Below, in pieces: positions 18,001-21,000 of a stretch of DNA of 64,000 nt. The translations under genes were made by a program, and so were the position numbers. Numbering within the stretch: position 1 is the first letter of the stretch; each line of letters opens with the position of its first letter. Under the pieces are notes generated by a model. That model saw only the letters and a program-made list of their open reading frames with translations, did not search any database and was not told the DNA's origin. The DNA is taken from the NCBI GenBank assembly GCA_009869945.1, contig WIXG01000046.1, positions 1 to 64,000 of the forward strand, in the 5' to 3' direction. The stretch is from Mesaphorura yosii (lineage: Eukaryota; Arthropoda; Collembola; Poduromorpha; Tullbergiidae).

Positions 18001-21000
18001 AAAACTTGGCACTTGATTAATGAACTTTAGCTTCCCGATAGCGAAACGGGACTGAGCGAGTACACAATGCTGCAAATGATGTTAACGTTAAACCCATTTA
18101 TATTACTATGCTCGAGACTAGCTTCATTTGTCTCAACTTTGTTTGCTGTTTCGTGGAATTAATTCAATCGATTCCTCTAGCTAAATGGATAAGCGTGTAT
18201 GATAAACCGCATCCGCTAACGCGCACCACCCAGATCGTATAAATGCAAATGCGGTACAAAAGACTCCTTAAAGTTAGCTCATTCGGAAATCCTGCCGCCT
18301 AATGTGATTTGATGTGATGATCTTGTTAACCTCTCCGAATTTATTTTGAGTACAAAACAATGCACTGAATTCTTGTTGCCCGTTCTTGCAGAAAATGCAC
18401 GTTTACAAAAAGACCCTTCAGGCGCTGATCTACCCGATCTCGAGCACCACGCCGCACAACTTCGTGCTTTGGACTGCGACATCACCGACCTACTGCTACG
18501 AGTGCGAGGGACTGTTGTGGGGCATCGCCAGGCAGGGCGTCCGCTGCACGGAGTGTGGAGTGAAGTGCCACGAGAAATGCAAGGACTTGCTTAATGCGGA
18601 TTGTTTGCAAAGTAAGCAAAACTTGAGTAATTATAATTTGCACTTTCCCGTGCTGTGTCCACTTCAACTTTTCTGTCCCTTCAAATTAGAAAGTTGCTTT
18701 CACCAAAACCACAAATGAATTACTGTCATCGCTCAGTTGCGTCATCGCCCAAAATTAAGTGCTCGGCGAAAATGAAAGGAGTGCTTTTGCAGATATAAGT
18801 CTACTTTCTCTTACTCAAGGCCGGGGCATTTGAGCCTGAGTTTGACAGTTTGAGATAATATTTAACAGGACGCTGCTTATCTTCTTTGACCATCGCATGA
18901 GGAAGGATTTTTGCACTTCAAAGCCTCTTTCAATAAACCCCCACAGCAAAAGTCTCAGCACTGTGCACAAAGTGAGAGCTTTGCTTGATTTACTTTTCTC
19001 AAATCCTCTGACGTTTGATCGACGGGTTCACTTTGGAAAGTTGCGCTTGCATCCCACTTTTCTTACGCTTTCAGTTCGATTTTGATAACGTAAGCATGAA
19101 ATTCTTCTCAAACCAGCGCAGCGATTGCAGACATTTCGTCGATGTCTGCTCTGGACGATGTAACTGTAACTAAACTTTTCTTGTACTTTGTGCACTTTTC
19201 AGGAGCCGCCGAGAAAAGTTGCAAGCACGGTGCGGAAGACAAAGCGAACAGTATTATCACGGCCATGAAGGAGATTATGAAACAACGAGAGAGACAGAAG
19301 CCCGAAATCTTCGAACTCATCAGGTAACTTTGTCGTAACAGTTTCCCAGTTCAGCGATTAACATTTCAGGAATTACAGTAATCAGCACTGCTGATGCTGA
19401 CACTGATTTAGCGTACTTCGCTACTTGAAGCGTTTAAGCCAAGCTCAAGCTAGGAACTACTTTCTTCGTGAGACTATTTTCATGCCTCAAACGGTGAAAC
19501 GGCCGCTTTTTGCCAAGTTTCGTACTGGCTCGGCTATATTTATTCGACGATAAATAAAAGATGCAAGATTTAATCAAGGTTCGATGAATTCATGCAGGGA
19601 AGTGTTTGGTGTAGAAGAGAAAAGTCACACAGGCCACATGAAGGCCATAAAGCAGTCTGTCTTAGATGGAACCAGTAAATGGTCGGCCAAAATTGCCATC
19701 ACAGGTTTGTACACGTCGACTTTGTTGTGCCGCCGAGCGCAGAAAGTAATCAAAATGCCACGTGGCGACTTATCAAACCCGTAATTTGTTTTGTCTCGCT
19801 TTCTGTTGGTCGATGGGCCTGAAACGTTAACCGTTCTTTCATAAACAACATTAAAGGACTTGTCCAGCTTCAATTTCTGTATAAACCTGAGGCGTACATG
19901 GGCTTCTGTGTTTTGCTTTCACATGGGTCTGTCTCGGTGTTGTGGTTTATGTGTCTACTGTGTGACGTAAATTCAAAACTCTCGCATCTTCTTGTTTTGT
20001 ACTTTTCTTGTTACTACTTAAAATGTTTCCCCGCCAAGAGTCCTATTCCCTTCACGTTTGTCGGGCATTCTGCTGGTTAGCCATAAAACGACATAAACAA
20101 GCATCAGCAGGCAAATATGAGAAATGACACACGTCATAAAAACGCAAAACTTTCGTGTACGTGCAGCCTATCTCGGAGAGAAATGCTTTTAATGTGGCTC
20201 TTGTTTGACAGAACCACGTTTGGAATCGATGCAGATGCTCATTTAGATACTGTAGAACAAGCTGAGGGACTAATTCTAGAAGGAACGTCAAACTGGTCCT
20301 GCAAAATTGCCATCACAGGTACCCGTCCACGCGACACATTAATGCAAACAACCCTCGCAGTTTTGTATAAAGTTAAACGAGTAGAATAAAATTCATTTAA
20401 TGGCTCACAAAACGTAATTACTTTAGCAGCCGGTATTTTATGCTGAATTTTATTGAATGCAAATGGTTGAGCTTAACCAATGCACGAGAGAATCAATTGG
20501 CGAGATAAAAAGCACGCTTTCATAAAACTACTAGAATGCTAGAATAGAATTGCAAGTTACTAGAGTACTTCTTGGACTTGAGCACATCCTGCGCACGGAG
20601 AAATTCCCAACAAGCTACAACTTTAGGCTATAAATTCGTAGCCAGCAGTCAACTAGTGCAGAGTCAGTAGTCTGGGTAGTTTTAGAGTTTCGGAGCATAA
20701 AATTCAGGAAACGAGTCGTAGAACAAGTTTGGGGCTGGACCGAAGGGAAAATAGCGATTCTAGATTCCGCAGCAGTGTTGCAGTGGTGGAATGTAGGACA
20801 GTAGCAGAAAGAAGTATGAAGTGTAGAGAATTCAATTTCTTCTAGATCATGTGTATGAGTACAGAGCTACGTAGACCAAGTGCAGGAATAGCGAAGAGAT
20901 CCGTGCTTAGAAGCAGCTGTCTCATGAACCGTACAGTTCCTCCGCATGCCTTCCCGTACTGTCGTTGATCGTTGGTTCACATTACATCTGGCCTGCTCTC

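Follow-up and report, generated by a model that had tools for sequence, protein, structure and literature searches.

Analysis of the 64,000-nucleotide stretch of DNA examined here (the window) argues strongly that an arthropod unc-13 gene carries an old, tandemly duplicated pair of mutually exclusive exons, 8a (19598-19704) and 8b (20212-20318), both on the forward strand. The duplication, the frame logic, the uniqueness of the pair and the constraint on 8b were computed from the DNA. We propose that an ancestral unc-13 exon was duplicated in tandem to give 8a and 8b, and that each mRNA would take one of the two.

The gene is identified by similarity as unc-13 (Munc13), with a C1 domain and then a C2B domain with a Munc13-like linker: the spliced C1-to-C2B stretch aligns to rat Munc13-1 (5ue8) without gaps over 196 residues (E 1e-104), and Pfam matches C1_1 (E 1.5e-13) and also C2 on the spliced segment. 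On the forward strand, an upstream constitutive exon encoding the C1 domain (18392-18611; similar to the C1 domain of rat Munc13-1 and matched by Pfam C1_1) precedes exon 7 (19203-19323; placed by its reading frame and GT donor), which ends in phase 2; 8a and 8b follow, separated by an intron of 507 nt (19705-20211), and then exon 9 (21710-21851; placed by frame and similarity to rat C2B), which starts in phase 1. The acceptor of exon 9, at 21710, is the weakest among the 19 scored (-0.4). Upstream of the C1 exon, an open frame of 2008 residues (9169-15195), with no Pfam match at E<=0.001, probably encodes the N-terminal region of a long isoform of UNC-13. Between the MUN and C2C domains, a 129-nt exon (28882-29010) enters and leaves in phase 1, leaves the frame open whether or not it is included, and is a candidate cassette exon; residues 1408-1452, absent from rat constructs (PMC8648301), perhaps belong to the same region.

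Exons 8a and 8b are each 107 nt long, are entered in phase 2 and left in phase 1, and have AG/GT borders (CAG/GGA...CAG/GTTTGT for 8a; CAG/AAC...CAG/GTACCC for 8b); lengths, phases and coordinates agree exactly with the original prediction. The two exons are identical at 54 of 107 nt and encode the same residue at 14 of 35 full codons, or at 15 of 36 residues if the Arg split across the boundary is counted, as had been claimed. The predicted 19-nt identity across the donor (19688-19706 in 8a and 20302-20320 in 8b) is likewise exact, and comprises 17 exonic nt and the GT. Once spliced, the frames 7-8a-9 and 7-8b-9 are open, with exon 9 read from 21710. Skipping of both exons (7-9) leads to a stop 108 nt upstream of the 9/10 junction, and their joint use (7-8a-8b-9) to a stop 72 nt upstream of the 8b/9 junction, bearing out the claim that using both or neither breaks the frame. 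Because either arrangement causes a frameshift and a premature stop, full-length UNC-13 would come from single-exon mRNAs only. The stops sit where NMD, which we infer, would act: unproductive joint or skipped mRNAs may be produced and then degraded. In length, phases, GT-AG sites, homology and unproductive joint and skipped forms, the two exons have the properties of members of a mutually exclusive exon cluster.

A stop upstream of a junction after joint inclusion, and another after skipping, would also suit an exon that serves mainly as a poison exon, 8b cutting UNC-13 output via NMD through joint inclusion with 8a or through switching; in human, some reads have been reported to link two exons within clusters of the frame-breaking type (PMC5740500). 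A poison exon, however, needs neither a coding frame nor a hydrophobic pattern nor the GTS-WS-KIAIT end, all of which 8b possesses, and we regard such a main role as most improbable. The evidence on its coding sequence points instead to 8b being, very probably, a maintained coding exon. When a copy of 8a was made to drift neutrally to the observed 54/107 nt identity, in a model with substitutions only, without indels, and with 8a as a simplified stand-in for the ancestor, none of 20,000 runs reached the 8a/8b protein score of 77 (maximum 61), 0.085% attained 14 identities and 24% retained an open frame, which argues that 8b has probably been maintained by selection as coding sequence. The two exons have correlated hydrophobicity over their first 24 residues (r 0.62, permutation p 0.001), and the Pfam C1 and C2 matches are kept in both the 8a and the 8b isoform. 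Differences between 8a and 8b fall at 18, 13 and 21 of 35 first, second and third codon positions, and the NG86 estimates are dN 0.66 and dS 1.93, values near saturation and hence rough.

The splice signals and DNA of 8b could be read differently, as those of a relic, a duplicated exon no longer used and now decaying. With a generic matrix of our own, its donor scores 0.21, as against 2.03 for 8a, and lies below 18 of 19 other donors; a simple program for gene prediction, with 8a barred, passed over 8b and took a later exon, although this program is crude and put the beginning of exon 9 in the wrong place as well; and, except in the last 17 nt, DNA similarity to 8a is close to saturation and barely above chance (12 of 200 shuffles match it). 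For the N-terminal halves, homology therefore rests on protein-level similarity. A decaying exon is, however, hard to reconcile with a protein score beyond all 20,000 drift runs, with the retained hydrophobic pattern, or with an open frame, an equal length and all four splice dinucleotide bases intact, and we consider a relic improbable. The acceptor scores of the pair are equal (1.35 and 1.37), and 6 of 19 others score lower.

Among the 13 shared codons other than Trp, the last five are without synonymous difference and the other eight differ at six; the absence of synonymous differences from the last five has a p of 0.016, a post hoc value for a test chosen after seeing the data. The identity of the 19-nt block could reflect gene conversion, or else an exonic splicing element common to both exons.

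The pair is unique within the sequence searched. Across the window read in six frames (127,792 positions), the mutual score is 77 and the next best scores are 24 for 8a and 22 for 8b, and a six-frame search with the 8a peptide of the whole assembly (93,006,257 bases, 1,127 contigs) at E<=10 returned two matches, the 8a and 8b sites; with this peptide, neither a third copy (8c) nor another paralogue was found in window or assembly. A scan of 24 exons, 8a and 8b included, for partners of equal length with AG/GT borders up to 6 kb away revealed no other tandem pair in unc-13, the best other score being 7 as against 77; it covered exons from 18392 to 24829 and from 25954 to about 33297, and copies of equal rather than other length. 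Searches of viral and genome contig collections with the exon 9 and C1 peptides yielded no unc-13 from relatives, and the sole match in one of them was a 19-residue stretch in a Bacteroidales MAG. The assembly itself yielded no match to COX1. TTAGG is the arthropod telomere repeat, and perfect arrays of it are present in the assembly as 21 exact 30-mers across five contigs, with none for the reversed control; the host is therefore probably an arthropod.

Trans-acting splicing factors are the most likely basis for the selection of one exon or the other, ahead of RNA docking and spliceosome incompatibility. Steric exclusion is unlikely with 507 nt between 8a and 8b, and U2/U12 incompatibility finds no support: all flanking sites are GT-AG, and no donor looks U12-like when compared with the U12 consensus. 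In Dscam-like clusters, exclusive choice is enforced by RNA structures that compete with one another (docking/selector pairs), a mechanism common in arthropod exon clusters (PMC6071210). Here, however, the best intron-intron duplexes equal those of shuffled sequences (-38.8 vs -40.1±3.1, 20 shuffles; -46.2 vs -47.3±3.2, 8 shuffles; -43.2 vs -43.1±2.5, 20 shuffles), a comparison within one genome, which weak conserved pairs would escape; local folding gives -252.8 vs -264.8±8.2 (20 shuffles), and the flanking introns are without homology, their similarity being matched by 162 of 200 and 65 of 200 shuffles. We consider RNA docking rather unlikely. As neither steric exclusion, nor U2/U12 incompatibility, nor RNA pairing finds support, trans-acting factors combined with frame/NMD filtering remain.

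A search of three introns for ten motif classes found the CELF-type motif TGTTGTG twice in the intron after 8a (0.1 expected), at 19723-19729, which is 18 nt past the 8a donor, and at 19938-19944, and once in the intron after 8b (0.2 expected), at 21524. The whole window contains 19 copies vs 12.6 expected, a number reached by 4 of 100 shuffles, and Fox, PTB and STAR motifs are absent from introns 7 and 8a. With ten motif classes tried, a CELF-type factor as selector of 8a or 8b is a lead only. In neurons of Caenorhabditis elegans, the CELF protein UNC-75 represses the second of two mutually exclusive exons of unc-32 and helps the first, binding UUGUUGUGUUGU in the intron that separates them (PMC3585155). 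Exons 7a and 7b of unc-32 resemble the present pair in belonging to an exocytosis-related neuronal gene, in the choice between exons and in the presence of a UG-rich motif in the intron that follows the first of them (PMC3585155). They differ in that the gene is another one and its UNC-75 element is UUGUUGUGUUGU, whereas the unc-13 intron has only TGTTGTG, twice; furthermore, unc-32 exon 7a is described as having weak splice sites, whereas in unc-13 it is the second exon, 8b, that has the weaker donor.

Mutually exclusive tandem exon clusters are already known, and the 8a/8b pair in unc-13 is apparently a further case. The preconditions applied by Kassiopeia are similar length, frame, splice sites and homology (PMC3923563), and among human clusters 377 (60%) include exons whose length is not a multiple of three (PMC5740500). 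Exons 8a and 8b are like this Kassiopeia/WebScipio class, catalogued in Drosophila and human (PMC3923563, PMC5740500), in length, phase, GT-AG sites, homology and frame break on joint inclusion; they differ in that neither catalogue names unc-13 in its main text. In Drosophila LNv neurons, unc-13 is among the genes behind the GO terms of differentially spliced transcripts, the event being unspecified in the portion of the study consulted (PMC6025963). No published description of the 8a/8b pair was recognised among the matches listed, a scope distinct from supplements and annotation databases. Arthropod unc-13 isoforms may include such an exon, and prior annotation of the pair in databases or tables is quite possible.

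Comparison with rat Munc13-1 bears on the ancestry of the two exons and on their place in the protein. Exon 8a aligns without gaps to rat residues 660-694 (numbered as 5ue8 chain position + 528, by which K603, K706 and K720 of PMC8648301 fall on aligned lysines) and is identical to them at 26 of 35 residues. The corresponding figure for 8b is 13, of which 12 are among the 26 of 8a, and the 8b peptide with its flanks matches rat Munc13-1 with E 1e-10. By its greater closeness to the rat protein, 8a therefore looks ancestral and 8b derived, as the original prediction of a canonical 8a and a divergent 8b had it. By alignment, the swapped segment would be the C-terminal end of the helical C1-C2B linker together with the first C2B strand. 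The claim of a mutually exclusive pair in this linker is well supported by the anatomy, the frame logic and the drift test, and has to be amended in that the exon also holds the first C2B strand. A second claim, that the N-terminal half is basic in 8a and acidic in 8b, is correct for 8b (net charge -5) and incorrect for 8a (net charge 0). Summed over the whole exon, 8a carries a net charge of +1, the rat segment one of +3 and 8b one of -5; lysines 674, 677 and 686, common to 8a and rat, are E, E and N in 8b, which retains the hydrophobic pattern and the GTS-WS-KIAIT end.

In the crystal structure of Munc13-1, the C1-C2B linker consists of four helices with extensive contacts to H1, the MUN domain, C1 and C2B, and C1-linker-C2B by itself is insoluble (PMC5344669). 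A Ca-free simulation makes the linker part of the membrane-contacting surface (PMC8648301). Exon 8a has a gap-free counterpart in this region (5UE8), for which the available parts of the two papers describe no splice choice (PMC5344669, PMC8648301). The switch from 8a to 8b would replace the end of the linker and the first C2B strand, keeping the buried hydrophobic residues and changing the exposed charge from +1 to -5. The two isoforms would then share a common fold and differ in the binding of C1-C2B to the acidic plasma membrane, in packing on the MUN domain, or in both. The likeliest effect of 8b would be a weaker Ca-independent contact of C1-C2B with the membrane and/or an altered contact between linker and MUN. 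Its physiological direction is unpredictable because neighbouring charge mutants of Munc13-1 act oppositely, K603E reducing priming and K720E raising release probability (PMC8648301).

The tuning of priming by exon choice would fit the published structure and mutants of Munc13-1. We tentatively suggest, as a less likely possibility, that a charge switch encoded by splicing determines how UNC-13 is oriented at rest on the plasma membrane: 8a would provide a Ca-independent priming mode via the polybasic side of C1-C2B, and 8b, in which three conserved lysines are acidic or neutral, would loosen this mode and give a different priming or release probability, such that one gene might serve synapses or secretory cells of two types. 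The isoform differences of UNC-13 known from the papers encountered are N-terminal (PMC3821175). If splicing varied the C1-C2B joint, natural variation would fall exactly where single charge changes in Munc13-1 (K603E, K720E) alter priming or release probability (PMC8648301), and 8a and 8b would accordingly be naturally occurring variants on which the two-orientation model could be tested.
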